Part shown: positions 8,212 to 47,544 of the stretch, piece after piece
Layout of the letters: the number at the start of each line of letters is the position of its first letter
How positions within the stretch are numbered: position 1 is the first letter of the stretch
Source: Chondrosia reniformis
Lineage: Eukaryota; Porifera; Demospongiae; Chondrillida; Chondrillidae
DNA: 64,000 nucleotides
NCBI GenBank assembly: GCA_947172415.1
Contig: OX359190.1
Span: forward strand, 3,472,001 to 3,536,000
Direction of reading: 5' to 3'
The notes under the pieces: generated by a model
What the model was told of the DNA's origin: nothing
Databases searched by the model: none
What the model saw: only the letters and a program-made list of their open reading frames with translations
Position numbers and translations under genes: made by a program

Positions 8212-11200
8212 CTACATTCCAAATTTGAAATCAGTTTTCAGTTTCTCAAGAATCTCTTCATGAATCTGATAGTCATTAGATGTTCGTTGAAGAACTGTAC
8301 AAAACAGCTTCAAACTCTCCTCCGTACCAGCATTCAGTAAGTGCTTTAAGAAGATTTTGTTTGCTTCCTTTTTGCTCTTTGCATTCTCAATCTCATCATA
8401 CACCTCTTCAGTAACCAGTGACATTCCATCCACTCCCTGGTAGAGGTGGTCACATATCTTGTCGACAGTGAGGTTTCCCAAGAGGTAAACCCAGTGATTG
8501 CCTTTGAGCTTTTCTTTCCAGCTCTCTGTACCAAAATAATATAAACACTGAGTCATTCAACAATACTATGTGCAAAATTATGTACATAAATGTACATAAA
8601 AGCAAAATTTAATGTGCATTATTTAGTGTTACAGTGAATACGCACTCACCATCACACTCTACTGAGTTGTCAGATGGGTTTGGCTGTCCAACAACTCCGG
8701 GTCCTCCAGTACAGGTAGACTGGTCTTTATAGAGAAGGAACTGGTCTCCATCAAATTCCACATTACCAGCCACGCTCAACTATATATTCAGAAGCAGATA
8801 TAAAAATCAATAAATTACTTGTGTTGAAAGAATAACAATAATAGAGACAGTAGCAGAAGATCACAATGTAAAATAGACGTACAGTCAAAAATTGTTATAT
8901 ATTCGTGAAAAAACCTATCTGTTGAAAAATAATATTATGAAAACTTACATTGGTGTCACTGTCCTGTTCCTTAGCAACCCAAACAGACTCTCTTGGAGTT
9001 AGTCCAGTCATCTTGTTCAGTCTGGTACACAGACCTGTTCTCTGGTTGTCACCTTCAAATCGCAAAAGATGCAAACTGGAGCCCTCACAATTCTGGTGAC
9101 TGCAAATGACCCCATTCTCTAAAGTGGCTTTCTCCTCAAGAAACTCTGCATCAAATACTACCTCACTCACGTAACAAATGCGCTCGTACATCTCCCTTCT
9201 GATGTGCCTGCAGAGCTCAGTCAAGGACAGACTTAGCTTGGGAAAGTGCTGAGGAACCAACAGTTGGAGTTGAATGAGGTCTTCCTTTTGGGAAAGAGCA
9301 ATGTGGGCATCTTCTTGTGTGAAAAAGAACTGTGTACAGCCTGATTGGTTGTGATAGTACCTCCACTGCCTTCCTCTCAGCTGGACTGGGCTGACTTCCT
9401 CCTCCTTGAGTGCTTGTCTGCCACTGGCAATGTCCACAGCCAGTCTGTGGAATAGACCAGTCGGTACACAGCTGTATCTGTGATGTTGGTACTTGGAATG
9501 AAAGGAGAAAGTGAATCCCAGAGTGGCCACAGATGCTTCAGGTAGGTGGATCTCCCTTTCAGGAAGGGCTGTTGGAATGAAGTAGTGTGTCTCCTTCTCT
9601 CTCGCTTTGGCTGCAATACCAATTTTTACCAAGACCTCCAGGAGCCATCTTGTTGGGATGTCAGCATCAATGCCTAGCTCTTGAAACAAATCTTCAGAAG
9701 TTGCTTCAGGAATTTCTCCAGTTTTCTTAAAAATACGTAATTCTGGATGAGACAATTTACTTGGGCCATACTGGACTGATAGCACTTTGGACATTTCCTT
9801 GTACAGAAAGGTTGCATCTGTACAGATCCACTGCTCTTTGTACTCACCCAGGTCAAAGTACAAATAGAACCCAAGGCAATGAAACAGGTTCAGCAGTGTA
9901 AGGAATTGTCCGTCAGCATCTACCGGTTGGATGTATTGGCATCGGAGGCAGAACTCTTTCAGTTCTGTGAACTTCCACATCTTCTTTTTCACGCTAGATG
10001 TGATTAGTTGCAGGCAAAACCAAACTTTGGGAACTTTCAATGCTAACCGATTCTTGGAAGCTGTAAGCTGAGAGCGAAGGGCATTAACTACTTTGCAAGT
10101 GTGATCCTTCATCGCGCTGTCTCCCTGTAGTTGACTGTCTAATAGAAAGTAGCTACCAGCACCTTCGTAGACAACTGCTTCTGGGGGAAAAACCCTGTTG
10201 CCATCATAAGGCTTGTTGTCCATTTCCTCTAAAACCTTCTTGTTGTGGTCCAGTAGAGTTCTCTTAGCATCAGGATCTTCAGGAAGATGGGAAAGGTGAG
10301 TGCCAACAAGGAAAATGCGAAGTTGGGGCTCATTAGGCATGTCAAATGCTTTCAACTGCCGCTTGCTCTTCATAGACATTGTGTAGGCAGCTGTAATGGA
10401 CTCCTTCATTAATTCCCAGGTTGAACGGCTGTTGGCGTTCTTCTCTTCAGTGACTCCATCTCGACAGAAAGCATTGACATACGGATCTGTCAACCTCTCT
10501 GAAGCTTTAAAGACATGCAGAAAGTTGCAGGGAAAGTCCAGTAGGAGTGGAACGACATTCTGAAAGGAGGGCTGGCCTCCTGTGTCAAGGAGGTAAATGA
10601 ACTTACACTTCTTTTCATCAAATTCTGCTTCAGTGGAGAGCTTGTGCTTCAGCAGGAACCTGTCCCTGGCTTGCTCCAGTAGATCTAATGGGTCTTGCAC
10701 TGCTAAAGCCTCATTGGTATCATCTCTATGGCTAGGAGGAGGCGGAGGGGAGTTGGAGACGTCGGTTGGCAGCTTGGTCGTCTCACTGGCTACCTCTGGT
10801 GCCTTGATGATACCATCAGGCAAAGTGGCATCATTAGATGAAGCCTGTGGAAGAGAGGCAGGTGGGACTTCTAGAGTGCCGCCTGGAAAGACCTCCCTTT
10901 TCTCCATCTTAACCTTTGAAATAAGCTGCCCTAGCTTTTCATCTGTTAAAACTTTCCAGGAAGAACCAACTGCCAAACATTTAATGAAATCATACTTCTC
11001 TTCCTCTCCCTGGCTCCCCTTCCCCTGGCCTTCCTTTCCCTGGCTCCCCTTCCCCTGGCCTTCCTCTCCCTGGCTCCCCTTCCCCTGGCCTTCCTCTCCC
11101 TGGCTCCCCTTCCCCTGGCCTTCCTCTCCCTGGCTTCCCTTCCCCTGGCCTTCCACTCCCTGGCTTCCCTTCCCCTGGCCTTCCATTCTCTGGTTTTCTT

Positions 11201-11429
11201 CTCTCTGGTATTCCTCTAACCGATCTGTTCTTCCATTGTCAGCAATTGTGGCCACTTCAGGAGCTTCCAGCACTCCAGTGCTAGTTTTGTCTTCTCTTGC
11301 TGTGTTGTAGAGTAGGTAGTGCTTCAGTGAGGTTTTACCAACTCGAGGGCCTCCTGTTAGGAAACAGTAAAAGATGTTAACCTCAACGGAGCCATGCCCT
11401 TCTATGGCTTCTTCATACCATTGGGGCGC
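8212..11429 (-). CDS. P-loop GTPase-COR-CARD protein, U1 copy
   Basis: Three phase-consistent exons: 11429-8949, 8779-8650 and 8525-8212 (TAG), about 974 residues from the first visible exon; 5' exons were not found. Exon 1 starts with a ROC-like GTPase: Walker A GGPRVGKTS at residues 26-34, G3-like DTGGQ at about 282-286 and LVGTH at about 374-378 in the G4 position. Between Walker A and G3 lie six EGQGKGSQGE-type decapeptides and a proline-rich stretch. A COR-like half follows (KVWFCLQLITS, LNLFHCLGFYLYFDL, WICTDATFLYKEM). The middle exon is a Cys-containing linker (TCTGGPGVV). The last exon is a helical death-fold domain, best read as CARD-like (VDHLYQGVDG-type helices, EEVYDEIENAKSKKEA, ending TDFKFGM). 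It is probably a cytoplasmic signalling scaffold or immune sensor; that role is inferred from domains only. Confidence 0.78.
11009..11193 (-). repeat. 30-bp in-frame coding minisatellite (GEEGQGKGSQ)
   Basis: Six near-identical 30-bp units encode ten-residue Gly/Gln/Lys/Glu repeats in the GTPase gene. U2 has two units (about 27610-27670) and U3 about five (about 47155-47300). The number changes without disturbing frame, so this is a length-variable hydrophilic insert. Confidence 0.9.
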
Positions 11430-13047
11430 CTATATTGTACAAAACAAAACATAAAATAAACAGAAGTAAATTATTATTGCATCTTTCATATTAATATACG
11501 TACGTACGTAGTTAGAACAATTGTCTTGACTCAATGTTTACAGTTCTCAAGTCTATATACGTAGCTAGTTATATAAAAGTGTGAGGTTTAAAAGGTTTAA
11601 TGAAGCGGATATTAAGATTTGATCAACGTTGGTATCAAAAATATTTCATTTGCTCCTAACACAAAAGGAGTACAGGAATAAACGCTTAATAAACATACGT
11701 ACGTAAACAACTATAAACAATTGTATGTTAAAGAATTATCATCTACATAGATTAACTTTTAAGGCTTCTACAAATGTAGTGCTACTTCTATTGTTGAGTA
11801 TATCAGAGAGTACGGTAGTACTCTCTATGTAGGGATGGTACTGGTTGTTTCGTTTTCCCCATACATTGGTATAGGAGCGAAATTCCGAATTAGGCTGAAA
11901 ATCGCCGAAACGAGACTATGTAGAGTTAAATATAGAACAGCCATGCTATAAATTGGCCTTGAAGGCAAGCGACCGTGTATCGTTGGCAAATGAACGAACT
12001 TTGAAATCTCCCATTTTCGTTTTTTTCTTCTTCATCTTCTTCTTCATCTTCTTCATCTTCTTCGCCCGCTGTAACTAAAAAACGAAATAAGCCTGCGGAC
12101 TACTTCTAAAGCGAAAATACTCTAAATTTTCCGAGCTGTATTCTTTTGTAGAAGCGAGAGCGATAACGCTATTATTGAGTATGACAGTTTTCATGGCCCC
12201 AGAGTCAAGACCTCAATAAATTCGCCATTTTAATGACGTCATAATCAGTCGAACATTGCAAAACCAAATTGGTTTAAAATACAACGAATTCCTAGCTTAT
12301 GCTCCATAAAAAGTACAGAAACTAGAGAACAATAGCTATGACTGAATCCTACAAGCAAGGGTGTTGTATGATTCATGCATATATAGCTAATGCTTCACTG
12401 TGTAACATCCCTTTCTTGTTTCTCTGCTTTTTGTGCCATCCCTACATCTTCACTATTTTTGTAGAAAATTTTTATTGTTCTCTAGTTTATCATGAAGTAG
12501 AGGATGTACACTTTAATTTAGAATGAGATTGACTAGTCTAATGTACAGGCTACACAGACATTACAACATTTAGAACTATTTTACAGTTCCAACAATCTAC
12601 CCTCCCACCCTAACCAAGATGAGATATGGCAGAGGACCATACAGACTGTCCACTGTTGTCAGATCAATTCACTTGTGTGTGGGTCTTGGTATGAGGCTAA
12701 TTGCATTGTGTGTTGCTTACACCAAATCAGTTCGAGTAAATATTAATGTATCTTCTAATACATACATACACTGCTGGGAAGATGTCCAAATATAGAAACT
12801 AAAAGCAGTCTAGTATAAGGTATAGAACTGACCCAAGTTGAACAACTTATTCTTAATAAATGTTATAAAGTAACAAACACTCAAATTGACAATTGTTCCA
12901 AAAATCAATCATGAAGTAGAGGATGTACACTTTAATTTGGAATGGGATTGACTAGTCTAATGTACAGGCTACACAGACATTACAACATTATAACATTTAG
13001 AGGTACGTACATATTTTGCACTACATCAAATCAGTTTGAGCAATGTA

Positions 13048-14814: not shown

Positions 14815-14823
14815 AATTATTAT

Positions 14824-16310: not shown

Positions 16311-16359
16311 AACTTTTAATACTTTAATGTAATGTTTTGTAATTAAATAAGTTACTAAC

Positions 16360-17924
16360 CTCAACTGCAATATCGTACTGTACAGCTCTTGTCTCATATT
16401 GTCTTATTTCTCCTCCTCCTGCAATGGTGAGAAACGTAGTTCCGTTGAGGGAAGCCGTACAATTGAAGTGATAAGACGTTTCTTTACTAATTTGTGTCCA
16501 CTTCTTCTTCTCGAAGATGAAGATTCCTTTTGGACCTACTATGACTGGTAGGGTGCTGTATTGTAAAAGTGAACTGAACTCTGTTGCATTCTTGAGCTGT
16601 TCCCAGTGATATACAGCATTATTGGTAAGTGAAGCCATAAAATTCTTCTTATGCATTCTCCAAAAATATCCATTGTACCAGTAGTAGATGTAAATGTATT
16701 CACCACACAATGCCATGTGGTGATATGATAATGGTAGAGGAAGTTTCAGATTCGACTGGATCCACTTTTTCTTCTTAATATTCAGGAATTCAATTGTGTC
16801 TACATCTATGCCATCTGCTTCTTCTCCTCCAAACACAATTACTAAGTCTTCCATTGCAAGAACACCTGGACTGTATCGGGCAGTGTGCATTGGAGGATAT
16901 AGCTCTAACCATTCTTCACCTGTCCATGTCACTAGCTTGTTTGTAGGAGTGTGATGAATGTCTCTACCTCCTATCAGAGTTAACTGATCTTTTATGATGG
17001 TGGCTCCACTGTAATAATACAGAGATGGAGGTAGTGTTGACCATTTCTTCGTTAGTACATTGTATACCTGAACGGTCCGGTTAGATGTTGTATTTTCACA
17101 GAATCCACCGCAGACAAATACTCTTTCGTTAATTACAACTACTTTTCCAAATTGAGTTCCAAATGTCGCTTCCGGTATTTCAGTTGATTTCAGGAAGTGA
17201 CCTCCTCCAGCTGTCAGAAGGTCACTTCGAAATACCTAGTTAGAGACAAGAAAGGAAAGATAATATTCACTATTTGGAGGAACTGAATGACATGGAAGGA
17301 GCAAGTTCTCTAGCAGCTTATTGCAAGAACACTTTGAGGCCTGTAAGTGCCGTAAATCTTCTTGTCTAAATATTCTTAACGTGCATGCATGGCTCATAGT
17401 TTAATAATGCTCATATTTTAAACTTTATAACGTTTACAGTGACAAACTAATTGCCACCAGTAGAGGTTATTCAGTTACGGAAAGATTACGAATCAGTTCC
17501 TCGCTTTCTAACTTGTCCCCTAAAAGGATATGAATCGCGTGTGTCTCTTCGCTCTATAGTTGACTGGTTTGGTTTAGGTTTTACACGGACCCAACAACTG
17601 TAATTGAAGTACACGAGCCAGCCAAGTATTCCTTTCTAAACAAACCCAATCGAACAGAAACTAGTCTCTGCCTACGTATGTGTGCCAGTTAGTCCCGACA
17701 GGTTCACTTACAATATCTGTTCTAGACTTGGCCAACTACTTCTAGAGTTAAGATTAAGTCGCATTTCTTAGTGAATGTATTTCGTGTGTAACTAATGTCT
17801 TCTCAAACCAAGCGAGTTTAATTTTGGCAGTGAATTCGGACCAGTAATAGTTAACACTCCTATAAACTGTTTAGTTAACAAGAGACTTATTAAGTAAACT
17901 CACGTTCTCCACGTCCCTGTTCAT
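16360..17924 (-). CDS. Kelch-repeat protein, U1 copy
   Basis: A short first exon 17924-17904 (Met-Asn-Arg-Asp-Val-Glu-Asn, then a GTGAGT donor) joins in phase 0 to 17235-16360, a fully open 292-codon exon. Kelch signatures recur: VFVCGGFCENT, VYNVLTKKW, LTLIGGRDIHH, LVTWTGEEW, DLVIVFGG, FLNIKKKKW, HHMALCGEYIYIYYW. Kelch blades form a beta-propeller used for protein binding. The exon can end at the GTTAGT donor at 16359; otherwise it reads on to a stop at 16324 after ...FNYKTLH. It is about 75-80 percent similar by eye to the U2 and U4 copies. No BTB or signal peptide is visible. The start choice rests on conservation with U2. Confidence 0.72.
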
Positions 17925-20410: not shown

Positions 20411-22766
20411 TCTGATTGAAGGTTTTATTGATAAGAATGAAGCTCACACAAAGTGACTCAGGCATAGGGGGTATATCAATTGCTTATACAAGAAGTAAGC
20501 CACATGATTCAATTATCAGTCACATGACCCTATTATCAGTCACACGAATCATTGATGATGTATGGTATGTATGTTAATACGTGGATACTTCATCTGACTG
20601 TTTATTTTGTTAGACGTTGATACAATTGTTGGTTCAGAAGTATACAGTAGTAGAAGTAGAAGTATACAGCGTTCAGCCATGGACAAAGAATGACTTACAG
20701 CATGTCCGTCCATTCTCTGCCAGGTACGTATGCATGGTGTAATTGGTATCAAATGACATTCAATCTGCCAATTGGCAATTTGACTTTCTGCAAGTGAAGG
20801 CAAATGCTCCCCTCCCTTAAAGAGGCACTTTTCAGAGTTTGGTCTAGTTATTATAAGACCTTGCAAGTGTTCTACTGGAGATACTGTACATTCCAAGCAT
20901 GTGTATGTTATAGCAGTTGACTCCACTCAACCTTTGCTGGACATGTACGTATGTGTGTGTATGTATGAAGTGTTCTAACACTGCTTGCTTACATTTTGAG
21001 CCATTTTATGAGATTTATTAATCCATGCTTACTCTGTATGTAGGTATTCCCTAAGTGATTAGTTGAGGAAAACAGCCTATTATAATAATATTTACCTTAG
21101 CCTCGTATTGATGTCAACCATGTCAATAAGAAAATGGTGTTTATAGTATTCGTGGATTAAATAAATTGGTTACCTTTGAACGACAATGTGGTTACTATTT
21201 CAAGTTTGGCTTTTAGATAAAAGAATCGAGCATCTTGACTGCTACTTTGATTGTTTCTTATCTTGATTCAGAATTAGAGATTTGGAAGAGCTGCTTTACT
21301 TGTATCCCTGTGTTTTGAAGAATAAAGCGTTTGCAAAATTCTATCCACGTATGTTTAGTATGATTAACATTATAAACCCTCAGTATGCTGTGCCTGAATG
21401 GTATGCAAGTAAATATACCAACTGGAACACTACCACCTGCATCATGTCACTTTGTCTGTATTAACAGATATCCATAATTTCATTGCCACTCCTTCATGTG
21501 ACTTATTCCAATTATGTTTTTGGATTTATTTATTTATGACTTTTTTAATCAATATTATTTTGAACTATCATTACATTTTCTATTTAAATAACTTTAATTT
21601 CTCATAACTTCCACTGTACATGGAGTGTTCCTCACTTTGTTGCAGGTCCTTACCTCCAAGCAGTCCGATGATAAGGCCAGACAGCATTGGACAGCCCTCC
21701 CCCATGCCACAATACGGGTTACATGTAAATGTATACCAACATGTGTGCATGCATGTATACACACAGATTAGCCTATAGATGATGGTAGCCAAAAACCCAT
21801 AGATGACATCATTCTATGCATTGGTTGGCTATCTTAACCCATTGCTTAAGATAGCCTCTCTCTCACGTGCATACATACTTGTGTGTGTCTGTGTACCTGT
21901 ATATGTAGATTCACACTGTGACTTGTGGTAGTCAGTGGACATCTATGACCCTATTAGGATTATATTATCATCAGCACTATTTAAGATGTCTCACTTGAAA
22001 TGGGCTAATGCAGGCCAGCTTGATCTGGCATAGCACTGGTGGTGTTTTGGATTTGGTTTCCAGTTTTTGTTTGCAATACTTTAATGGAACGGTTGTGGTT
22101 TGATTGTTATATACATAATAGACTACAATACTTAACTGCTGTTAATAACTAACAACTTTTTTCTACTGCAGAACCAGCCCTCTCCGTTGCAACCTTTTGG
22201 AGTGAGTCATTGCATAATACTCACACTTGTTTATTGGAAACAGATAATTATTTACTGAATACATATTATAAGTGTTTACAAAAACAGCTATCTCAACAGA
22301 AGAACAAAGTGCCCAAGAAGGCTCTTGTATCCTCATCCAAAGCTATCTAGGTTTAATTTTCTATAATTCTAAACTTACAATTTTCTCTCTCCTTTTTATC
22401 CTGTACATAGTATGGTATGTATTAAAAGAATACTCATATAGATTTCTTCATAGGTAGAAAGTATTTAGACCAGTGAATGCTAAATTATTAGACAAATGTG
22501 ATTTCTAAATAAATTCAGTTAAAATACTCTAAATTGTATCTTCACTGTTTTAAGGCATATACGTATCTGAGGTATTTGTTACATTTAGTCCTATTAGAAT
22601 GCCACTTGCCATGATATTGCTGGAATCATGTTTTATTAGTGTTTTACATACATACCATTTTTTCCATGTTTCTTTCAAATAGAATGAACATGAAGAATTT
22701 CCCCAACCTCCAGGCGCACAGGGACTGTTTAATTCTACTTTTGATGGGCGATCACTTTACCACTAA
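20411..22766 (+). pseudogene. Duplicated STAT 3' fragment, U2 (decayed)
   Basis: Homologous exons: 20411-20494, 20614-20723, 21272-21348, 21646-21724, 22172-22201, 22683-22766. The SH2 exon has a 41-bp deletion that removes the PGTFLMRFS block and its phosphotyrosine-binding Arg and brings TGA into frame. The next exon has a short internal duplication (AGTAGTAGAAGTAGAAG region). The exon carrying the activating Tyr (4811-4913 in the parent) is deleted together with about 500 bp around 21598. The upstream half of STAT is absent; collagen exons precede it instead. Confidence 0.88.
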
Positions 22767-24025: not shown

Positions 24026-24344
24026 CCATATTCTGGTGTCCCCTTCCAGTCTGTTGGTCACTTCTTCATGCACCTCATAGTCTCTAACAGAAAATATCAA
24101 CACTTGATAGTGTTTTACTTCTCAAGTGTTCCAAAAAGATTTCATTTGCATCTTTCTTGGTTACAGCATGATTGATTATCTGATAAATGTCATCTATAAT
24201 TAGCTGTGTTCCATCCACTCCTTGCAAGAGTTGGTTGGCAAATTCTTTGATACAGAGATTCTCTAGCAGGTACTGTATACGTAGACCTGATGGAGTTGAG
24301 TTAAGTTGTGATGGCATTGTACAACCTCTCGCCACTACTGGCAT
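24026..24344 (-). pseudogene. CARD-like exon, U2, frameshifted
   Basis: A second death-fold exon lying downstream of the GTPase-COR-CARD gene (ENLCIKEFANQLLQGVDGTQ, NHAVTKKDANEIFLEHLRS, SSVDIFC). Compared with 44429-44742 it has lost about 22 bp after DIFC, giving an immediate TAG. Its 3' boundary (ATATGG then GTAGGT) is kept. Only a fragment of the upstream linker survives (about 24355-24400). No Death-domain exons follow. Confidence 0.65.
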
Positions 24345-24692: not shown

Positions 24693-27600
24693 CTACATTC
24701 CAAATTTGAAATCAGTTTTCAGTTTCTCTAGAATCTCTTCATGAATCTGATAGTCACCAGATGTTTGTTGAAGAACTGTACAAAACAGCTTCAAACTCTC
24801 CTCTGTACCAGCATTCAGCAAGTGCTTTAAGAAGATCTTGTTTGCTTCCTTTTTGCTCTTTGCATTCTCAATCTCATCATACACCTCTTCAGTAACCAGT
24901 GACTTTCCATCCACTCCCTGATAGAGGTGATCCACTATCTTGTCGACAGTGAGGCTTCCCAAGAGGTAAACCCAGTGATTGCCTTTGAGCTTATCTTTCC
25001 AACTCGCTGTACCAAAATACAATAAAATGAACACTTAATCATTCAACAGTATTATGTACATACATATATAAGCAAAATTTAATGTACTATTGATACGTTA
25101 TTTAGTGTTATAGTGAATATGCACTCACCATCACACTCTCCCAAGTTGACAGATGGTGTTGTTTGTCTAACATCTTTTGAATCAGGTCCTCCAGTACAGG
25201 TAGACTGGTCTTTATAGAGAAGGAACTGGTTTCCATCAAATTCAAGACCATCAGTCATAGCAAACTACATGGAAAACAAAATGTAAAATTACATAGTAAT
25301 TCTATAATAAAGTTTGAGAAATTGTATATCATCAGCCTTGTAAAGTTACCGATTCACTTGTAAAGTTAGTGAAAATTTCCAATTCACTTAACATTGAAAG
25401 TATGAGAAACACAAAAACTGAAATGTCAATTTTGAATAAGTTCCAGATCACCTGGAATACACCTCATACGTATACACCTTGGTGTGCTGTATAGTGCTGT
25501 ATGGTACAGGCAATTGCACTGCATGTAGCTTACAAACTTACAGAACTGGTGTCGTTTATATATTCTGTAGTAACCCAAATCGACTCTCTTGGAGTAAGTG
25601 GCTTTATTTCATCCACCCTGGTACATACACCTGTCACCTGACTATCGGTTTCAAAGCGCAAAAGATGCAAACTGGACTCAATGCAATTTTTCAGACAGCA
25701 AACAACTCCATCCTCTAAAGTGGCTTTCTCTTTAAGAAACTCTGCACCAAACACTGCTTTGCTCACATGACAGATGCGCTCGTACATCTCCCCTCTGATG
25801 TGCTTGCAGAGCTCAGTCAAGGAAAGACTTAGCTTGGGAAAGTGCTGAGGAACCAACAGTTGGAGTTGAATGAGGTCTCCTTTTTGGGAAAGGATAATGT
25901 GAGCACTCTCTTGAGAGAAAATGAACTGTGTAGCATCTGATTTACTGGGGCAGTACCTCCACTGTTTTCCTCTCAGCTGGACTGGGCTCACGTCCTCCTC
26001 CTTGAGTGCTTGTCTGCCACTTGCAATGTCCACAGCCAGTCTGTGGAATAGACCAGTTGGTATGCAGGTATATCTCTGATATTGGACAGAATGGAATGAG
26101 AAAGTGAATCCCAAAGTGGCCACAGATGCTTCAGATAGGTGGATCTGCCTCTCGGGAAGGGCTGCTGGAATGAAGTAGTGTGTCTCCTTCTCTCTCACTT
26201 TGGCTGCGATACCAATTTTTATCAAGACCTCCAGGAGCCATCTTGTTGGGATGTCAGCATTGATATCTAGCTGTTGAAACAAGGCCTCTGAAACAGCTTC
26301 AGGAATTACTCCTTTTTCCTTGAAGTTACGTAGCTCTGGACTTGAAGATTCACTTGGACCATACTGGACTGATAGCACTTTGGACATTTCCTTGTACAGA
26401 AAGGTTGCATCTGTACAGATCCACTGCTCTTTGTACTCATTCAGGTCAAAATACAAATAGAACCCAAGGCAATGAAACAGGTTCAGCAGTGCAAGGAGCT
26501 GTCTGTCAGGATCTACTGGTTGGATGAATTGGCATCGGAGGCAGAACTCTTTCACTTCTGTGAACTTCCACATCTTCTTTTCCACACTAGATGTGATTAG
26601 TTGCAGGCAGAACCAAACTTTGGGGACTTTCAATGCTAACCGACTATTGAAATCTGCAAGCTGAGAGCGAAGGGCATTAACTACTTTGTAAGTGTGATCC
26701 TTCATCTTGCTGTCTCCCTGTAGTTGACTGTCTAATAGAAAGTAGCTACCAGCACCTTCGTAGACAACCTCTTTTGGGGGGAAAACCCTGTTGCCATCAT
26801 AAGGCTTGTTGTCCATTTCCTCTAGAACCTTCTTGTTGTGGTCCAGCAGAGCTCTCTTAGCTTCAGGATCTTCAGGAAGATGGGAAAGGTGAGTGCCAAC
26901 AAGGAAAATGCGAAGTTGGGGTTCATTAGGCATGTCAAATGCTTTCAACTGCCGCTTGCTCTTCATTGACATTGTGTAGGCAGCTGTAATGGACTCCTTC
27001 ATCAATTCCCAGGTTGAACGGCTGTTGGCTCTCTTTTCTTCAGTGGCTCCATCTCGACAGAAAGCATTGACATACGGATCTGTCAACCTCTCTGAAGCTT
27101 TAAAGACATGCAGAATGTTGCAGGGAAAGTCCAGTAGGAGTGGAACGACATTCTGAAAGGAGGGCTGGCCTCCTGTGTCCAGGAGGTAAATGAACGTACA
27201 CTGCTTTTCATCAAATTCTGCTTCAGTGGAGAGATTGTGCTTCAGCAGGAACCTGTCCCTGGCTTGCTCCAGCAACTCTAGTGGGTCTTGCACTGCTAAA
27301 GCCTCAGTGGTATCATCTCTACCATGGCTAGAAGGAGGAGGAGGAGGAGGAGGGGAATTGGGGACATCGGTTGGCAGCTTGGTAGTCTCACTGGCTACCT
27401 CTGTTGTCTTGGTGATACCATCAGGTAAAGTTGTATCATTATATGAAGCCTGTGGAAGAGAGGCAGGTGGGGCTTCTAGAGTGCTGCCTAGAAAGACCTC
27501 CCTTTTCTCCATTTTAACCTTTGAAATAAGCTGCCCTAGCTTTTCATCTGTTAAAACTTTCCAGGAAGAACCAACTGCCAAACATTTAACGAAATCATAC

Positions 27601-27926
27601 TTCTCTTCCTCTCCCTGGCTCCCCTTCCCATGGCCTTCCTCTCCCTGGCTCCCTTTCTCCTGGCCTTCCATTCTCAGGTTTTTTTCTCTCTGGTATTCCT
27701 CCAACCGATCTGTTCTTCCGTTTGTGTCTCCATTGTCAGCAATTGTGGCCACTTCAGGAGCTTCCAGCACTCCAGTGCTAGTTTTGTCTTCTCTTGCTGT
27801 GTTGTAGAGCAGGTAGTGCTTCAGCGAGGTTTTACCAACTCGAGGGCCTCCTGTTAGGAAACAGTAAAAGATGTTAACCTCAACGGAGCCATGCCCTTCT
27901 ATGGCTTCTTCATACCACTGGGGTTC
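24693..27926 (-). CDS. P-loop GTPase-COR-CARD protein, U2 copy (best preserved)
   Basis: Exons 27926-25542 (795 codons, open), 25264-25129 and 25006-24693 (TAG), phases 0 and 1 as in U1, about 943 residues from the first visible exon. Walker A GGPRVGKTS is near the start, a G3-like DTGGQPSFQNV follows, and FLVGTH replaces the canonical NKxD. The COR-like half includes VWFCLQLITSSVEKKMW and LFHCLGFYLYFDL. It has only two decapeptide repeat units against six in U1. The middle exon differs (MTDGLEFDGN..., DSKDVRQTT), and the CARD-like exon is nearly identical to U1 (VDHLYQGVDGKSL). It is likely the active family member here. N-terminal exons upstream of 27926 are not recognised. The pathway is inferred. 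Confidence 0.82.
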
Positions 27927-31998: not shown

Positions 31999-33547
31999 CT
32001 CAACTGTAATATCATGCTGTACAGCTCTTGTCTGATATTGTCTTATTCCTTCTCCTCCAATGGTAAGAAACGTAGTTCCGTTGAGGGAAGCCGTACAGGT
32101 GTTGTAATAAGACGTTTCTTTACTAATTTGTGTCCACTTCTTCTTTTCGAACATGAAGATTCCATCTGGACCTACTATGACTGGTAGGGTGCTGTATTGT
32201 AATAGTGAACTGTTCACTGGTGCATAATTGAGCCTTTCCCAGTGATGTACATCATTATTGGTAAGTGAAGCCATAACATTCTTCTTATTCATTCTCCAAA
32301 AATATCCATTGAACCAGTAGAAGATGTAAATGTATTCACCACACAATGCCATGTGGTGTTCTGATAATGGTCGAGGAAGTTTAAGATTCGACTGGATCCA
32401 CTTTTTATTCTTAATATCCAGGAATTCAATTGTGTCTACTGATCTGTAATCTGCTCCTCCAGACAAAATTATTAAGTCTCCAATAGCAAGAACACCTGGA
32501 CTGGTTCGGGCGGTGTGCATTGGAGGATATAGCTCTAACCATTCTTCACCTGTCCATGTCAGTAGTTTGCTTGTAGGAGTGCCATGAGTGTCTTCACCTC
32601 CTATCAGAGTTAACTGATCTTTTATGATGGTGGCTCCACTGAGAGAATACGGAGATGGAGGTAGTGTTGACCATTTCTTCGTTAGTACATTGTATACCTG
32701 AACGATCCGGTTAGATGCTGCATTTCCACATTCTCCCCCGAAGACAAATACTGTTTCTGTAAGTGCAACTGCATTCCCTAATCGAGTTCTAATTGTCGCT
32801 TCCGGTATGTCAGTTGATTTAAGGAAGTGACCTCCTCCAGCTGTCATGAGGTCACTTTGAAATACCTAATTAGAGACAAGAAAGAAAAGATAATATTCAC
32901 TGTTTGGAGGAACTGAATGACATGGAAGGAGCAAGTTCTGTAGCAGCTTATTGCAAGAACACTTTGAGGTCTGTAAGTGCCGTAAATCTTCTTGTCTAAA
33001 TATTCTTAACGTGCATACGTGCATGCATGGCTCATAGTTTAATAATGCTCATATTGTAAACTTTATAACGTTTACAGTGACAAGCTAATTGCCACCAGTA
33101 GAGTAACAGAAAGGTTATTCAGTTATGGAAAAGATTACGAATCAGTTCCTCGCTTTCTAACTTGTCCCCTAAAAGGATATGAATCGCGTGTGGCTCTTCG
33201 CTCTATATAGTTGACTGGTTTGGTTTAGGTTTTACACGGACCCAACAACTGTAATTGAAGTACTCGAGCCAGCCAAGTATTCCTTTCTAAACAAACCCAA
33301 TCGAACAGAAACTAGTCTCTGAATGTATGCCAGTTAGTCCCGACAGCGCAGGTTCACTTACAATATCTGTTCTACCATTAGACTTGGTCAACTACTTCTA
33401 GAGTTGTTATAGTGTTAAGCTTAAGCTATTATAATGTCTTTTCAAACCAAGCGAGTTTTGAATTCGGACGAGTAACAGCTAACACTCCTATAAACTGCTT
33501 TAGTTAACAAGAGACCTATTAAGTAAACTTACGTTCTTCTTGTTCAT
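31999..33547 (-). CDS. Kelch-repeat protein, U2 copy
   Basis: First exon 33547-33533 (Met-Asn-Lys-Lys-Asn, GTAAGT donor), phase 0, joined to 32865-31999, an open 289-codon exon. Kelch motifs: VFVFGGECGNAAS, VYNVLTKKWSTLPP, LTLIGGEDTHG, LLTWTGEEWLEL, DLIILSGGADYRS, FLDIKNKKW, HHMALCGEYIYIFYW, TFLTIGGEGI. A predicted beta-propeller for protein binding. The 3' side shows a GTTAGT donor directly after TVEV at 31998, or a readthrough stop at 31963. Its upstream neighbour is the collagen-like gene on the opposite strand, so the two genes share a divergent promoter region (about 33550-33760) that is conserved in U1 and U4. Confidence 0.75.
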
Positions 33548-37982: not shown

Positions 37983-40847
37983 TCTGATTGAAGGTTTTAT
38001 TGATAAGAATGAAGCTCACACAAAGCTTGCACAGTGTGTTCCAGGTACATTTTTAATGAGATTCAGTGACTCAGGCATAGGGGGCATATCAATTGCTTAT
38101 ACAAGAAGTAAGTTACCTGATTCAATTATCAGTCACATGATCCTATTATTAATCACATGATCCAAGTGTTGGTCACATGACCCTATTGTTAGTCACATGA
38201 TCCATGTGTTGGTCACATGACCCTATTACTGAAGCTGCGGTCATGTATGGTATGTATGTCAACTTGTGGATACTTCATCTGACTGTTTGTTCTGTTAGAT
38301 GTTGATACAATTGTTGGTTCAGAAGTGTACAGCGTTCAGCCATGGACAAAGAATGACTTACAGCATGGCCATCCATTCTCTGCCAGGTACATATGCATGG
38401 TGTAATTGGTATCAAATGATATTCAATCTGCCAATTAGCAATTTAACTTTTTGCAAGTGCAGGCAAATGCTCCCCTCACTTAAAGAGGCGCTTTTCAGAG
38501 TTTGGTCTAGTTATTATAAGACCTTGCAAGTGTTTACTGGAGATACTGTACATTCCAAGCATGTGTATGTTATAGCAGTTGATTCCACTCAACCTTTACT
38601 GGACATGTATGTGTGTGTATGTATGAAGTGTTCTAACACTGCTTGCTTACATTGTGAGCCATTTTATGAGATTTATTAAGCCATGCTTGCTCTGTAGGTA
38701 TTCCCTAAGTGATTAGTTGAGGAAAACAGTCTATTATAATAATAGCCTCATATTGATGTCAACCATGTCAATAAGAAAATGGTCTTTATAGTATTCGTGG
38801 AATAAATAAATTGGTTACCTTTGAACGACAATGTGGTTACTATTTCAACTTTGGCTTTTAGAGAAAAGAATCGAGCATCTTGACTGCTACTTTGATTGTT
38901 TCTTATCTTGATTCAGAATTAGAGATTTGGAAGAGCTGCTTTACTTGTATCCTTGTGTTTTAAAGAATGAAGCGTTCGCAAAATTCTATCCACGTATGTT
39001 TAGTATAATTTACATTATAAACCCTCAGTATGTTGTGCCTGAATTGTATGCAAGTAAATATACCAACTGGAACACTACCACCTGCATCATGTCACTTGTC
39101 TGTATAGACAGATATATATAATTTCATTGGCACTCCTTCATGTGACTTATTCCAATTATGTTTTTAATTGTACAATAATCTCATGCGGCGTATTGGGTTT
39201 ATTTATTTATGACTTTTTTAATTTTTATTGATATTATTTTGAACTATCATTACATTTTCTATTAAATTACTTAAATTTCTCATTACATAGCATATATTTC
39301 TCTTGAAATATTCTACGTACCTGATTGTCTTAGCCTATACAATATACTTCATTTTAAAAAACCTTCAAAATTTTAATAGTTGTAGTTTATTAATCAGTTG
39401 ATGGTTCGTTAAATAATAAACTGTATACATCACAGTAACCTACATAAGTTCTTGTTAAGATTCACAGTTAGAGACTCCTAATTCCTTGGATCTCATATTG
39501 TCTGGATAAATAAGGTTTTATGTACTCTTTCTTATTGGCCCATTCAGAGCCTATTGGTGAGTCAGCAGATCCAGCTAAGTATGTGGGATGCACTGTAATG
39601 GTCTCGCTACACCCTCCTGGATCATCCCGAACAACCGTATACCTCTTGTATATCGTATACTGAAGCTTCAATGTGAATATACATAACTATTTTAAGTAGA
39701 GTCTGTCAAAGAGAGGTGACCGTTCCACCATACATGGAGTGTTCCTCACTTTGTTGCAGGTCCTTACCTCCGAGCAGTCTGATGATAAGGCCAGACAGCA
39801 TTGGACAGCCCTCCCCCATGCCACAATATGGGTTACATGTAAGTGTATACCAACATGTGTGCATGCATGTATACATACAGATTAGCCTTTGGATGATGGT
39901 AGCCAAAAACCCATAGATGACATCATTGTCTGCATTGGTTGGCTATCTTAACCCATTGCTTAAGATAGCCTCTCTCTCACATGCATACATACTTGTGTGT
40001 GTCTGTGTGCATGTATATGTAGATTCATACTGTGACTTGTGGTAGCCAGTGGACATCTATGACCATATTAGGATTACATCATCATTGGCACTATATAAGA
40101 TCTTTCACTTGAAATGGGCTAATGCAGACCAGCTTGATCTGGCATAGCACTGGTGGTGTTTTGGATTTGGTGTCTAGTTTTTGTTTGCAATATTTTAATG
40201 AAACGGTTGTGGTGTGATTGTTATATACGTAATAAACTACAATACTTAACTGCTGTTAATAACTGATCACTTTTTCCTACCACAGAACCAGCCCTCTCCG
40301 TTGCAACCTTTTGGAGTGAGTCATTGCATAATACTCTAACTTGTTTATTAGAAACAGATAATTATTTACTGAATACGTACATATTATAAGTGTTTACAAA
40401 CAGCTATCTCAACAGAAGAACAAAGAGCCTGAGAAGGCTCTTATATCCTCATCCAAAGCTATCTAGGTTTAATTTTCTATAATTCTAAACTTACAGTTTT
40501 CTCTCTCCTTTTAACCTGTACATAGTATGGTCTGTATAAAAAAATACTCATATAAACGTTTTCATAGGTAGAAAGTATTTAGACCAGTGAATGCTAAATT
40601 ATTAGACAAATGTGATTTCTAAATAAATTCAGTTAAAAAAATTCACAGTTTTAAGGCATACGTATCTGAGGTATTTGTTACATTTAGTCCTATTAGAATG
40701 CCACATTGCTGGAATCATTAGTGTTTTACGTACCTACCATTTTCTCATGTTTCCTCCAAATAGAATGAACATTAAGAATTTCCCCAACCTCCAGGCACAC
40801 AGGGACTGTTTAATTCTACTTTTGATGGGCGATCACTTTACCACTAA
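37983..40847 (+). pseudogene. Duplicated STAT 3' fragment, U3
   Basis: All eight homologous exons are present: 37983-38107 (SH2 block intact, [11 protein letters not shown]), 38299-38386, 38917-38993, 39548-39673, 39760-39838, 40286-40315, 40764-40847. The Tyr exon keeps DPAKYVGCT but has about 23 extra bases after SSRT that introduce a stop, and the final exon has TAA right after Asn-Glu-His. DNA-binding and linker exons are absent. It is preceded by collagen exons, so any transcript would be chimeric. The intact SH2 segment is notable, but the copy as a whole is probably a pseudogene. Confidence 0.82.
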
Positions 40848-42359: not shown

Positions 42360-42553
42360 AGTTCTCAGTTCACCATCACACTCTCCCAAGTTGTCAGATG
42401 ATGTTGTTTACTAAAGCGTAAGGACCTACCCATATTCTGAAGTGTGTAAGGACCTACCCATATTCTGGTGTCCCCTTTCCAGTCTAGATCTGTTAGTCAC
42501 TTCTTCATGTACCTCATAGTCTCTTGAGGTTTGTCAGAGGATCTTACATTACA
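42360..42553 (-). repeat. CARD-exon 3' remnant forming a direct repeat
   Basis: The sequence GGACCTACCCATATTCTGG...CTTGAGGTTTGTC.GAGGATCTTA at 42440-42553 repeats the 3' half of the CARD exon at 44420-44512 in the same orientation. A 21-bp internal piece (GTGTAAGGACCTACCCATAT) is itself doubled at 42415-42460. The two copies flank the Death-domain exons. Confidence 0.7.
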
Positions 42554-42990
42554 ATTCAGTATTCTTTTGTTTCGTATTCATAACAAATTACATATTTCAT
42601 AAAGTGACAAACAGAACTTGCTTAAATACACTGATGACAGTAAAAATACAAATTTGTGAATAATAATGAAATTAGTTTATAAAATATATTATGTACACAG
42701 TTGATCTACGAAGAGGAATGTTCACAAGATCAATGTTGAAATCCATTTCACTGTATGCAACCCTATAAAGAAATAAAAGTATTGAAATATATACCATTAC
42801 ACTGTACACTGTACATCCACGTATGTACTGGGAATACTATAATGTCATACAATGATCAAAGACATGAGTAGGTCTGGACACCACACTGGTGGATGTATGT
42901 TAAGTATCTGCTAAATAGTCATATCAAATGAGATTAGTGAAATATACAATGTCAACCCTCTATCTAGGAGCTGTATTATTATTAACCTTA

Positions 42991-44957
42991 CTACTTGAGT
43001 GTTTTGGCCACTTTACTAAATCCACTCTTCTCCAGTGCTTCAACAAGGACAGATACTGTAGCGTTATCTCCTTGTTCGTCATGCCATGACTCCAAGGCTG
43101 CGACAAAGACTTCAGATGGATCGTTTGAACCAGCTTTTTCTGCCTCTACAAAGATGTCCCTTGTAACTCCTAAACGTCTGCACACTGGTTTCCACCTGGT
43201 GACAGCTTCAGAATCAGCTACATCTTGAAGTTGGCAAATAGTCACTCTCTGTCGCAAGCTGTCCTCGGCTAAAGATACATGTAATACCAAATATGTAAAA
43301 CTGGATATCGGGAATTGACTGTGTGTGCCTAAAGAATGTGTGTTTTGGCCACATGCACAAACAAAGTGAAGTAAATGGCTTTCCTCCTTACCAACTGGTG
43401 TAACTGGCATTGGTGGGTTGGTGTCCATGGCTTGTTTTGATTTGTCTGGTTCACAGGGCCCTATGAATATTACAAAATGGTGACGATGCAAATGTTTACA
43501 CAATGCTATAAATTGAACATATTACTTTGTGCATCTTGTACAAAGTATGTATATATACAGTGGAAACTAGCTAACACGAGAACGCTTTACACAAATTTAT
43601 TGCTTTAGACTAATAAAATTGGAAAACAGAGTCCTTAAAATACAAAAAGCTACCGTTTCAATACGTAATGTTAACAAACTTTGGTGACTGATTATAAATA
43701 ATACGTAGTTAAATTAACGTAATATGGAAACGAAGAAGAAACAAAAGTGCTATTTTATTGATTATATATTTGATTATTATTGTGTTGAAACTTTCACAAA
43801 GACACAGACTACACGTACTTTTAACCATATATGGAGCTGTATATTTTAAAAAACTTTATAATACTGTATTATGTACTATTGTTTAACAAGAACTACTGAT
43901 AACAAGAACTAAAAGACATGGTACCCAGAAGTACTAGTTAACCAGTTTCCACTGTATGTATCTGTTAAAACTCACTTGATTTTCCTGACCTCAAAGGCTG
44001 ATCTCCCTAATGCAGTAAAATGATATATAGAGAATAGATAATATAGCAAGGTACATAACAGCACACATGTGAGATCAAAGTGATAATCAAACCAATAATC
44101 AAGGAATCACAGACAAACATTACAAAGAGGACAAATATGAAGAAGAAATTGCTGGGAATCAAACCCAGGATAGCTGGTTATGACCACCAGTGCTCTCCAA
44201 TGAGTACAATTGTCATTACAAAACATTCACGTTTCTTCTCTTATAACAACTACTACAAAGTAATTACGTAGATACCACATTCCCACTAGTGTGATTCTCT
44301 TTATCAAAATGACCTCAAAATCATATGTAGGCACTCACAGTATAGACTACCTACGTACATTCACGTTTCTTCCCAAAGGTACACAAGACGGTGTAGAATA
44401 CATAATATGCTGAAGTGTACGGACCTACCCATATTCTGGTGTCCCCTTCCAGTCTGTCAGCCACTTCTTCATGTACCTCATAGTCTCTTGAGGTTTGTCG
44501 GAGGATCTTACAGAAAATATCAAAACTTGAAAGCGTTTTACATTTGAGGTGTTCCAAGAAGATTTCGTTTGCATCTTTCTTGGTTACAGCATGATTGATC
44601 CTTTGAAAAATGTCATCTGTAATTAGCTGTGTTCCATCCATTCCTTGCAAGAGTTGGTTGGCAATTTCTTTGATACAGAGATTCTCTAGCAGGTAGACCC
44701 TATGATGGAGTTGAATAACATTTCTCCATCCGCAAATGGCATCTACATATGAATACACAAAGATATAAATCATTATGCAATAAACTGAAAAAGTTGTACA
44801 ACAGCTGCATTAGTGAATATGACTCACCGTCGCACTCTCCCGAGTTGTCAGATGGTGTTGGCTGTCCAACAACTTCAGGTCCTCCAGTACAGGTAGACTG
44901 GTCTTTATAGAGAAGGAACTGGTCTCCATCAAATTCCACTTTACCAGCTACGCTCAA
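42991..44957 (-). CDS. Linker-CARD-Death domain exons, U3
   Basis: Five exons join in perfect phase: 44957-44828 (linker, QFLLYKDQSTCTGGPEVV), 44742-44429 (CARD-like, NLCIKEIANQLLQGMDG, FLEHLKCKTLSSFDIFCKI), 44006-43976 (GDQPLRSGKS), 43460-43392 (PCEPDKSKQAMDTNPP) and 43268-42991 (Death domain, TAG). The last exon shows the Death-fold pattern RWKPVCRRLGVTRDIF, FVAALESWHDEQGD, ATVSVLVEALEKSG. CARD and Death domains recruit partners by homotypic contacts. The exons continue in frame from the GTPase exon at 45123, so this was the 3' end of a GTPase-COR-CARD-Death protein; whether it is still expressed with the broken upstream exon is unknown. An internal promoter would be needed for a stand-alone protein. 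Confidence 0.7.
44148..44222 (-). repeat. tRNA-Met-like pseudogene or SINE head
   Basis: The minus strand reads GAGAGCACTGGTGGTCATAA, CCAG, a short variable loop, then CCTGGGTTTGATTCCCAG. The T arm and B box (GGTTTGATTCC, one change from consensus) are clear, and a CAT anticodon sits in an anticodon-like hairpin with an extra base. The D arm and acceptor stem do not close, so it is not a working tRNA. It lies in an intron of the CARD-Death gene. Confidence 0.5.
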
Positions 44958-45122
44958 CTATTCAGAAGCAGATATAAAAATCAATAAATTACTTGTGTTG
45001 AAAGAATAACAATAACATACGTAGGTAGGTATTAAAGAGCAGCAAGATTAGAATGTAAAAATAGACAGTTAATAATCGTTACACTTGTAATAAGGTCTAT
45101 TTTGTTGAATACATAAACTTAC

Positions 45123-47544
45123 ATTAGTGTCACTGTCCTGTTCTTTAGCAACCCAAACAGACTCTCTTGGAGATAGTGACTTCACTTTGTTCAGTCTGGT
45201 ACACAGACCCCTTCTCTGGTTGCCATCTTTAAATCGTAGAAGATGCAAAGTGGAGCCCTCACAGTAACGGCAATTGACACCATCCTCTAAAGTAGCCTTT
45301 TGGGATAAAAACTCGCTTCCGAAAATGACTTTACTTACAAAAGCAATTCGCTCTTTCATTTCCATTCTGATATACTTGCAGAGCTCATTCAAAGAGAGAC
45401 CAAGCTGAGAAAAGTCTCCTGGAACCAGCAGTTGGAGCTGAATGAGGTCCTCCTTTTGGAAAAGGACAATGTGGGCATTATCTTGGGAGAATAAGAATTG
45501 TGTACTGTCAGATTGACTGGGACAGTACTCCCACTGGCTTTCACCAATGTATGCAGGCTTGATCTGCTGATCCTCAAGTGCTTGTCTGCCACTTGCAATG
45601 TCCACAGCCAGTCTGTGGAATAGACCAGTTGGTATGCAGGTATATCTCTGATATTGGACAGAATGGAATGAGAAAGTGAATCCCAAAGTGGCCACAGATG
45701 CTTCAGATATGTGGATCTGCCTCTCAGGAAGGGCTGCTGGAATGAAGTAGTGTGTCTCCTTCTCTCTCACTTTGGCTGCGATACCAATTTTTACCAAGAC
45801 CTCCAGGAGCCATCTTGTTGGGATGTCAGCATTGATATTGAAACAAGGCCTCTGAAACAGCTTCAGGAATTACTCCTTTTTCCTTGAAGTTACGTAGCTC
45901 TGGACTTGAAGATTCACTTGGACCATACTGGACTGACAGCACTTTGGATATTTCCTTGTACAGAAAGGTTGCATCTGTACAGATCCACTGCTCTTTGTAC
46001 TCACTCAGGTCAAAGTACACATAGAACCCAAGGCAATGAAACAGGTTCAGCAGTGCAAGGAGCTGTCCATCAGCATCTACCGGTTGGATGAATTGGCATC
46101 GGAGGCAGAACTCTTTTAGTTCTGTGAACTTCCACATCTTCTTTTTCACGCTAGATGTGATTAGTTGCAGGCAGAACCAAACTTTGGGGACTTTCAATGC
46201 TCACCGATTCTTGGAATCTGCAAGCTGAGAGCGAAGGGCATTAACTACTTTGTAAGTGTGATCCTTCATCTTGCTGTCTCCCTGTAGTTGACTGTCTAAT
46301 AGAAAGTAGCTACCAGCACCTTCATAGGTAACTGCTTTTGGGGGGAAAACCCTGTTGCCATCATAAGGCTTGTTGTCCATTTCCTCTAGAACCTTCTTGT
46401 TGTGGTCCAGTAGAGCTCTCTTAGCTTCAGGATCTTCAGGAAGATGGGAAAGGTGAGTGCCAACAAGAAAAATGCGAAGTTGGGGCTCATTAGGCATGTC
46501 AAATGCTTTCAACTGCCGCTTGCTCTTCATTGACATTGTGTAGGCAGCAGTAATGGACTCCTTCATCAATTCCCAGGTTGAACGACTGTTGGCTCTCTTC
46601 TCTTCAGTGGCTCCATCTCGACAGAAAGCATTGACATACGGATCTGTCAACCTCTCTGAAGCTTTAAAGACGTGCAGAAAGTTGCAGGGAAAGTCCAGTA
46701 GGAGTGGAACGACATTCTGAAAGGAGGGCTGGCCTCCTGTGTCCAGGAGGTAAATGAACGTACACTTCTCTTCATCAAATTCTGCTTCAGTGGAGAGATT
46801 GTGCTTCAGCAGGAACCTGTCCCTGGCTTGCTCTAGCAGCTTCAGTGGGTCTTGTACTGCTAAAGCCTCAGTGGTATCATCTCTATGGCTAGGAGGAGAA
46901 GGAGGTGAATTGGAGACAGCGGTTGGCAGCTTGGTCGTCTCACTGGCTACCTCCGTTGTCTTGGTGATATCACCAGGTAAAGTGGTATTATTAGATGAAG
47001 CCTGTGGAAGAGAGGCAGGTGGGGCTTCTAGAGTGCTGCTTGGAAAGACCTCCCTTTTCTCCATTTTAACCTTTGAAATAAGCTGCCCTAGCTTTTCATC
47101 TGTTAAAACTTTCCAGAAAGAACCAACCGCAGAACATTTAATGAAATCATACCTCTCTTCCTTCCCCTGGCCTTCCATTCCCTGGCTCCCCTTCCCCTGG
47201 CCTTCCCCTCCCTGGCTCCCCTTTCCCTGGCCTTCCTCTCCCTGGCTCCCCTTTCCCTGGCCTTCCTCTTCCTGGCTCACATTCCCCTGGCCTTCCATTC
47301 TCAGGTTTTCTTTTCTCTGGTATTCCTCCAACTGATCTGTTGTTCCGTTTGTGTCTCCATTGTCAGCAATAGTGGCCACTTCAGGAGCTTCCAGCATACC
47401 AGTGCTAGTTTTGCCTTCTCTTGCTGTGTTGTAGAGCAGGTAGTGCTTCAGCGAGGTTTTACCAACTCGAGGGCCTCCTGTCAGGAAACAGTAACTGATG
47501 TTAACCTCAACTGAGCCATGTCCTTTTATGGCTTCTTCATACCA
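45123..47544 (-). pseudogene. P-loop GTPase-COR exon, U3, broken
   Basis: Homologous to 8949-11429 and 25542-27926. It keeps DTGGQPSFQNV, FLVGTH, the COR-like half and about five decapeptide repeats. A TTA-to-TGA change gives a stop at 46201-46203 (AATCGGTGA). An 8-bp deletion near 45838 (CAGCTAGA in U2, lost here) shifts frame. Its C-terminal quarter differs more from U1 and U2 (DQQIKPAYIGESQWEYCPSQ) than the rest. The donor at 45122 is intact and leads in phase to the linker exon at 44957. Confidence 0.85.

Follow-up and report, generated by a model that had tools for sequence, protein, structure and literature searches.

What gene has been multiplied in a tandem array on chromosome 2 (C2) of the sponge Chondrosia reniformis, and what might its product do? 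The window analysed here is a stretch of 64,000 nucleotides (G000:C2:3472001-3536000, window positions 1-64,000) from the assembly odChoReni1.1, which comprises 14 chromosomes and the mitochondrion, chromosome 2 measuring 10.29 Mb (PMC12181767; this and the other papers named below are cited from excerpts); genome searches covered its 15 contigs (117,379,552 bases). A sequence-only reading had described three copies of a GTPase-COR gene with differing CARD or CARD-Death ends, interpreted as the local expansion of an immune family beside a STAT gene. The three copies (U1-U3) are present, all on the minus strand, and they are probably tandem copies of one multi-exon gene for an intracellular receptor, with the predicted domain order kelch, ROC-COR and then either CARD or CARD followed by Death. 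The sequence-only reading had not noticed the kelch exon, which is the likeliest site of recognition.

The expansion proved larger than a local event, both in what is repeated and in how often. Self-comparison reveals a segment of ~17 kb, not the GTPase alone, tandemly repeated over most of the window, and tblastn places STAT exons on its plus strand and kelch, GTPase and CARD exons on its minus strand. Restriction to three local copies is rejected by the genome search, in which a 110-residue GTPase query gave at least 147 matches; 74 of them, at 81% identity or more, form a close core, with 71 copies on chromosome 2 and one each on C12, C13 and C14. Those on chromosome 2 lie in runs of a single orientation at 0.60-1.51, 1.71-1.83, 2.51-2.99 and 3.46-3.55 Mb, with four elsewhere. 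Because only the best candidates were scored (150 of 151 for the GTPase, 150 of 219 for kelch, 150 of 227 for CARD and 101 of 139 for NACHT), all genome counts are lower bounds; linkage among CARD, GTPase and Death was counted on every GTPase and Death row and on 149 of the 150 CARD rows, one that overlaps another at C2:3114872 being left out, and kelch linkage on all 150 scored kelch rows. Uncollapsed haplotypes were rejected as the source of the copies, since the long-exon matches and U2 diverge by 8-29% at the protein level, and the quality value (QV) of 69.8 for the primary assembly (PMC12181767) was also counted against them. A further 57 GTPase matches at 31-45% identity are found on C10, C6, C4, C8 and C3, most in other tandem clusters, and a CARD row lies downstream of five of the 57.

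Exon structure of the array genes

The exons of the three units are as follows, in the order of the predicted transcript (a slash marks an exon boundary).

16360..17235, minus strand: U1 kelch beta-propeller exon (Pfam Kelch_1 7.3e-18; acceptor ctaactag/GTATTT, donor GTTGAG/GTTAGT)
8949..11429, minus strand: U1 ROC-COR GTPase exon, with a variable 30-bp repeat at 11000-11184 (profile matches; acceptor and donor via locus L034)
8645..8761, minus strand: U1 linker exon, matched stretch (tblastn)
8212..8523, minus strand: U1 CARD-A terminal exon (CARD match 8224-8523; Pfam CARD E 0.0042, below cut-off)
6829..7249, minus strand: U1 decayed linker and CARD-B remnant (broken frame, Death not matched nearby)
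31999..32865, minus strand: U2 kelch exon (Pfam Kelch_6 1.8e-14)
25542..27926, minus strand: U2 ROC-COR GTPase exon (profile matches, splice sites)
25129..25264, minus strand: U2 linker exon (GT-AG bounded, in phase)
24693..25006, minus strand: U2 CARD-A terminal exon (CARD match 24705-25004; Pfam CARD E 0.00028, below cut-off; AF2 and Foldseek)
24029..24272, minus strand: U2 decayed CARD-B remnant (broken frame, Death not matched nearby)
60360..61229, minus strand: unit 3 kelch exon, now separated from the U3 GTPase exon by ~13 kb
45123..47544, minus strand: U3 ROC-COR exon, a pseudogene with TGA at 46201-46203 and a change of frame near 45840
44828..44957, minus strand: U3 linker exon
44429..44742, minus strand: U3 CARD-B exon (Pfam CARD E 0.00028, below cut-off)
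43976..44006, minus strand: U3 mini-exon of 31 nt, lying after CARD-B and before Death (conserved in locus L036; phase read by eye)
43392..43460, minus strand: U3 short exon preceding Death (conserved with L036; phase read by eye)
42991..43268, minus strand: U3 Death-domain terminal exon (Pfam Death 2e-9, above cut-off)

Profile and motif evidence supports the identification of the GTPase exon as a divergent ROC-COR module. Among 17 GTPase family members scanned with Pfam, COR-A was matched in every one (best E 1.1e-5) and Roc in 16 (best E 0.0012), while the P-loop (G1, GG(P/S)RVGKTS) and the G3 motif DTGG are conserved in an alignment of the 17. Compared by hhalign with L057 (around C14:5979899; 76.8 bits), a clear COR protein from this genome, the family aligned over COR-A and the beginning of COR-B at E 0.0018. 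Set against this identification are the hhalign probability of 15%, Roc and COR-A scores below the Pfam cut-offs in the copies listed (including COR-A of U1 and U2), the absence of any match at E 1 when the family profile was run against PDB sequences, and a pLDDT of 29.5 for the AF2 model of ROC-COR built from two sequences. An NCBIfam scan returned nothing useful. The guanine-specificity motif G4 normally holds an Asp, and its counterpart in all 17 aligned members, GTHLS, has none, so that GTP binding may be altered. We count this as a ROCO variant and not as an exclusion, because Roc G4-G5 deviates from the classical motif (PMC6337361).

The boundaries of the GTPase exon were compared in 30 fetched loci (L019-L048). 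The position of the acceptor AG is shared by 27, the other three having an AG 9 nt downstream, and the donor GTAAGT is present in all 30; by these signals the exon is internal, bounded by AG and GTAAGT. The 30-bp repeat within it is present at 6.2, 2.2 and 4.6 copies in the three window exons, bearing out the difference in repeat number noted earlier. Some COR-B segments are common to copies whose G domains group elsewhere, and gene conversion among the copies seems to have occurred. The U3 exon contains an in-frame TGA and a frame change and is therefore a pseudogene; Roc alone was matched in the pieces of it that were scanned.

At the 3' side, GT-AG sites connect the GTPase, linker and CARD exons of U2 in phase. 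The AF2 model of the U2 CARD consists of six helices (pLDDT 93.9) and its Foldseek matches are mostly CARDs at the top of the ranking (rank 3 is a designed protein), among them the APAF-1 CARD (1cy5, TM 0.76/0.82). Pfam CARD was matched in 8 of 10 family members (best E 0.00036). For the Death exon, of which at least 13 copies occur at 83% identity or more, the score of 37.9 bits exceeds the Pfam cut-off of 22.6. Less favourable are the best Foldseek E of 0.12 for the CARD model, with no match reaching E 0.001, and three of the 74 core copies for which no CARD was detected downstream. The CARD profile had three PDB matches, none named a CARD, and these were not used. Profile searches, suggested in the sequence-only reading along with structure prediction, support ROC, COR and CARD below cut-off in the copies listed and Death above it, and structure prediction supports a CARD-like fold in U2.

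Two kinds of 3' end recur in the family. A CARD of either type is found downstream in all 30 fetched loci and in 71 of the 74 core copies, and a Death exon in 12 of the 74. In U3 the linker is followed by CARD-B, the 31-nt exon, the short exon and the Death exon, and the same chain is preserved in phase in the distant locus L036 (C2:8294086), which has an open GTPase frame together with CARD-B and Death. On chromosome 2 all 12 rows that we label CARD-B (our own label for rows at 47-52% identity without a stop; 5 of the 12 were checked by sequence) have Death within 3 kb, as against one of the 75 other CARD rows (60% identity or more, fragments included) with Death within 1.7 kb; three broken-looking CARD-B rows (C2:1324060, 2988851 and 3496078) were left unlabelled. 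At C2:1307467 CARD-A, CARD-B and Death stand together with no stops in the matches, so that in at least one copy, as read from the genomic sequence, CARD-A and CARD-B-Death are phase-compatible alternative 3' exon sets. The frequent loss of one or other module explains the 'unstable architecture' that had been described. The CARD ends assigned to U1 and U2 hold, at Pfam scores below cut-off, and the CARD-Death end of U3 holds as a set of domains and not as a working gene; U3 was accordingly rejected as the exemplar of the CARD-Death architecture. The second linker-CARD gene thought to lie downstream in U1 and U2 is in each case the frame-broken CARD-B remnant that follows CARD-A, and was rejected as a working gene.

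The kelch exons of the window lie 4-13 kb upstream of the GTPase exons on the same strand, match PDB kelch proteins at E 3e-15 and probably encode a six-bladed propeller, the number of blades being taken from the motifs. Across the core, 67 of 74 GTPases have a same-strand kelch exon upstream and no intervening GTPase, within 8 kb in 64 of them; in a control limited to 8 kb and free of the no-GTPase-between condition, same-strand kelch exons were upstream of 65 and downstream of 8 of the 74, and the opposite strand had none on either side. At four loci outside the window array (L036, L038, L044 and L048) the sequence preceding the GTPase exon shares homology with the terminal part of the window's kelch exon and with what follows that exon; these are the four that reach the kelch end among seven flanks inspected, 13 having been compared. 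The kelch donor reads GTTAGY in 9 of 9 exons examined and joins phase 0 to the phase 0 of the GTPase exon, while the kelch frame itself continues beyond this conserved donor and then ends differently from copy to copy.

These properties have to be weighed against an arrangement in which a standalone kelch adaptor gene and a ROC-COR-CARD gene with its own start are separate neighbours that were multiplied as a segmental unit. Neighbours that are duplicated as a segment stay adjacent even if they are not fused, and 37 of at least 104 kelch matches (54% identity or more) are unlinked to a core GTPase. An in-frame ATG, a possible start codon, is situated at the GTPase acceptor itself (ATGCAG directly before the boundary) in 14 of the 30 loci; it counts against a single gene, as do the 7 of 74 core copies for which no kelch exon was detected and a putative short first exon before kelch that is broken by indels in some of six copies. 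The window copies, however, have the acceptor and lack any in-frame ATG before the P-loop, the order and strand hold across clusters, and the matching phases and the frame that overruns its conserved donor to end at different places also tell against two separate genes. The same kelch exon moreover stands before coiled-coil and Death exons at locus L049, which fits a shuffled N-terminal kelch exon. We consider the two-gene arrangement improbable. On the evidence of frames and splice signals the kelch exon is most likely the N-terminal exon of the GTPase genes, and the simplest reading is one gene encoding kelch, ROC-COR, linker and CARD, with or without Death.

Kelch exons also occur in other company. 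The region C2:1.87-2.2 Mb contains 22 kelch matches, none with a core GTPase, and a Pfam Death exon lies within 12 kb downstream of 12 of them; this group is a second kelch-based death-fold subfamily. The one locus read there, L049 (C2:1975401-1982300), has a kelch exon followed by frames of coiled-coil-like and SLKEGD-repeat sequence, along with a Death exon. At C7:2865172-2868054 a kelch match (54%) is followed 2.6 kb downstream by a CARD of the family (72%) with no GTPase match between.

Selection on the kelch, ROC-COR and CARD exons

The predicted domains have diverged under different constraints. In the kelch exon pN/pS is 1.015 (bootstrap 0.72-1.48) for a set of seven genes and 0.997 (0.73-1.43) for a set of four, against 0.39 (0.33-0.47) and 0.37 (0.31-0.44) for ROC-COR in the same genes and 0.44 (0.36-0.55) for 25 CARD-A exons (those of the 30 loci with an ungapped, stop-free match). 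These ratios are uncorrected, from a method that ignores gene conversion; corrected pairwise dN/dS is 0.54-1.37 for kelch and 0.30-0.39 for the GTPase. A truncated kelch exon on C13 (L054, 150 aa) was included in pN/pS and omitted from the loop-column tests below, and L049 entered dN/dS only. Identity to the query is lower for kelch than for the GTPase in 67 of 67 pairs, both queries being modelled on window copies. Such a contrast is the pattern of a recognition domain mounted on a conserved switch and signalling domain.

Within the propeller the changes concentrate at predicted loop positions. Twenty columns, comprising the residue pair ahead of a strand in each of the six blades and one or two residues after GG or its equivalent, have pN/pS of 3.05 (1.50-8.68) and 2.23 (1.46-4.56) in two clusters, with 0.82 and 0.88 for the remaining columns, and in each cluster none of 10000 random column sets reached the observed loop pN. 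Several loop columns align by their position within the blade with KLHL3 Ser432, Ser433, Phe355 and Phe402, and others, in another repeat register, with His498 and Arg528 (the KLHL3 residue letters agree in 11 of 11 checked); all six are WNK4 contacts (PMC4019986). Several points tell against positive selection of a binding face. The overall kelch ratio near 1 could, taken alone, mean relaxed constraint, and the loop columns were picked after sight of both alignments, the KLHL3 contacts being looked up later. The KLHL3 alignments cover three of the six blades, the others being matched by analogy, and column 138, equivalent to Tyr449, falls outside the loop columns though it is among the 25 most variable.

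The same data bear on the proposal that the array is a by-product of unstable DNA, its copies drifting under relaxed constraint with no part in immunity or recognition. In its favour, the mean kelch pN/pS is about 1, STAT and collagen-like exons have been duplicated along with the array, U3 is a pseudogene and the GTPase frame is shorter than 700 aa in 8 of 74 core copies. Yet the frame is open over at least 733 aa in the other 66, ROC-COR and CARD-A are under purifying selection, and the kelch changes are focused on loop positions in two clusters. All six kelch exons of the array are open over their full length, where neutral drift predicts 4.7-5.9 stops per pair (each exon being the longest open frame of its stretch, a choice that favours open frames), and a stop was seen in 3 of the 104 kelch matches. 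Drift of unstable DNA is thus a decidedly improbable account of the family, and a diversifying receptor is the reading that we retain.

Other features of the window

Further exons lie between the kelch and GTPase exons of unit 3, and the STAT exons recur through the array.

58245..58832, minus strand: ZU5 domain exon upstream of the CARD at 55858..56304 (Pfam ZU5 1.2e-5)
55858..56304, minus strand: linker and CARD exon with a ZU5 exon, not a GTPase, beside it (the CARD shares 98% identity with the one in GTPase copy L044)
37996..38124, plus strand: STAT SH2-like exon, duplicated with the unit (other copies near 3197-3313 and 20424-20511)

The ZU5 exon and the linker and CARD that follow it on the same strand (55858-58832) may belong to a kelch-ZU5-CARD or a ZU5-CARD gene, an arrangement reminiscent of the tails of CARD8 and NLRP1. 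Unit 3 also contains a 47-bp tandem repeat (52646-53810; 24.7 copies, 99% matches) and an open reading frame with a PHD finger (50830-51714; Pfam E 0.00045, below cut-off), perhaps part of an inserted mobile element. The STAT neighbour that had been offered as a hint to function does exist as exons, the copy at 20424-20511 appearing broken in tblastn. All 14 STAT_bind matches of the genome search fall at C2:2.83-3.54 Mb, inside the array, and since STAT has been duplicated within it, its nearness says little about function.

A candidate mechanism and its relation to known systems

The domain order suggests how such a protein could work. The N-terminal kelch propeller would be the sensor, and ROC-COR, with its repeat-bearing insert in the G domain, would be both nucleotide switch and dimeriser, in keeping with the description of ROC-COR as a nucleotide-controlled dimerising switch (PMC6337361). 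A ligand bound at the variable face of the propeller would change the state or oligomerisation of ROC-COR, and the CARD and Death domains, released or clustered, would recruit homotypic partners such as caspases or other CARD/Death adaptors and so start a defence or cell-death programme. The copies themselves keep changing, through tandem duplication, variation in repeat number, COR-B segments exchanged between them and the disappearance of one 3' module. In two other sponges, genes with CARD, DEATH and kelch motifs change expression after exposure to microbial patterns (PMC6208332), which does not imply that they belong to the present family.

We lean, somewhat less firmly than for the gene structure itself, towards reading the kelch-ROC-COR-CARD(-Death) proteins as a hitherto unrecognised class of innate immune receptor in animals, encoded by dozens of clustered germline genes with a positively selected propeller face and a conserved GTPase and CARD, as a ROCO counterpart of the NLRs in a sponge. 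The earlier proposal of an expanding immune family with turnover of copies and domains gains from the 74 close copies, the recurrent CARD-A and CARD-B-Death ends and the diversifying kelch exon, and loses the pseudogene and decayed exons that it had counted as architecture. An overlapping possibility is that the family serves self/non-self recognition (allorecognition) or symbiont tolerance instead of pathogen defence, the propeller reading self or symbiont proteins and CARD/Death gating cell death. Many copies, a diversified face and ends of the death fold would suit it equally well, and the C. reniformis specimen held many bacteria (53 binned bacterial genomes; PMC12181767). Nothing in the analysis separates this variant from pathogen recognition; we rate it unlikely, though the least unlikely of the alternatives considered. 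With the RNA data that exist for this species, function is open to direct tests through the contrast between the exons of one gene and through the two alternative CARD/Death ends.

Several known proteins contain part of this architecture. APAF-1 and other propeller-NTPase-CARD proteins have in common with the family a beta-propeller sensor, an NTPase and a CARD, and the U2 model has the APAF-1 CARD among its nearest folds; APAF-1 itself uses an NB-ARC ATPase, WD40 propellers and an N-terminal CARD, in reversed domain order. DAPK1 carries a kinase and ankyrin repeats at its N-terminus and, to our knowledge, neither kelch nor CARD. The kelch-containing Roco proteins of the kinase-bearing group include those of Dictyostelium. 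In that group a kelch propeller and ROC-COR occur in one protein, as here, together with kinase domains, and the word 'CARD' is absent from the available text of the source (PMC6320773). DAPK1 has ROC-COR with a C-terminal death domain and without LRR (PMC6337361), and in sea anemones Roc/COR occurs together with TIR, and also together with kinase, death and TIR domains (PMC5094078).

Two further ROCO families resemble it in part. The early-branching animal Trichoplax adhaerens has at least 17 ROCO proteins which, like the family here, combine ROC-COR with CARD and death domains; their other partners are TPR, LRR, AAA, MBT, SH3 and TIR, and in the main text of the source, as excerpted, 'kelch' is absent and a large array goes unmentioned (PMC4104024). 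The LRR-ROC-COR candidates of brown algae are likewise expanded ROCO genes with a diversifying repeat sensor and exon-level turnover that were proposed as immune receptors, but they use LRRs as the sensor, one per exon, placed before ROC-COR in the simplest arrangement, and are mostly dispersed whereas the sponge genes are in tandem (PMC11378527). ROCO genes number 9-47 in brown algae, above the other organisms reported, with 4 in human and 11 in Dictyostelium (PMC11378527). Among the papers listed from open-access PMC text, none describes kelch-ROC-COR-CARD genes in its title, abstract opening or excerpts; we take these genes as a ROCO variant and possibly as a new receptor class.

There is also a functional parallel with the NLRs. 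Sponge NLRs, for example those of Dysidea avara, likewise couple a sensor and a nucleotide switch to CARD or Death and show large lineage-specific expansion, but they are built on NACHT and LRR, whereas the family here has ROC-COR and kelch with the signalling domain at the C-terminus (PMC12909245). The C. reniformis genome has at least 101 NACHT matches of its own (the best 101 of 139), 44 of them on chromosome 7 and none in the window, where Pfam scans found neither NACHT nor LRR; the kelch-GTPase-CARD family therefore runs parallel to the NLRs, is not an NLR by its domains and may work like one. Large germline repertoires of intracellular sensors in animals have been thought to be built mainly on NACHT/NB-ARC switches. 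If the present reading is right, a ROC-COR switch has been put to the same job, kelch replacing the leucine-rich repeats and the death-fold domain being placed at the opposite end. The ROCO proteins, the family of LRRK2 and DAPK1, would then number among them a class of animal receptors that have a diversified binding face and whose ligands could be sought.

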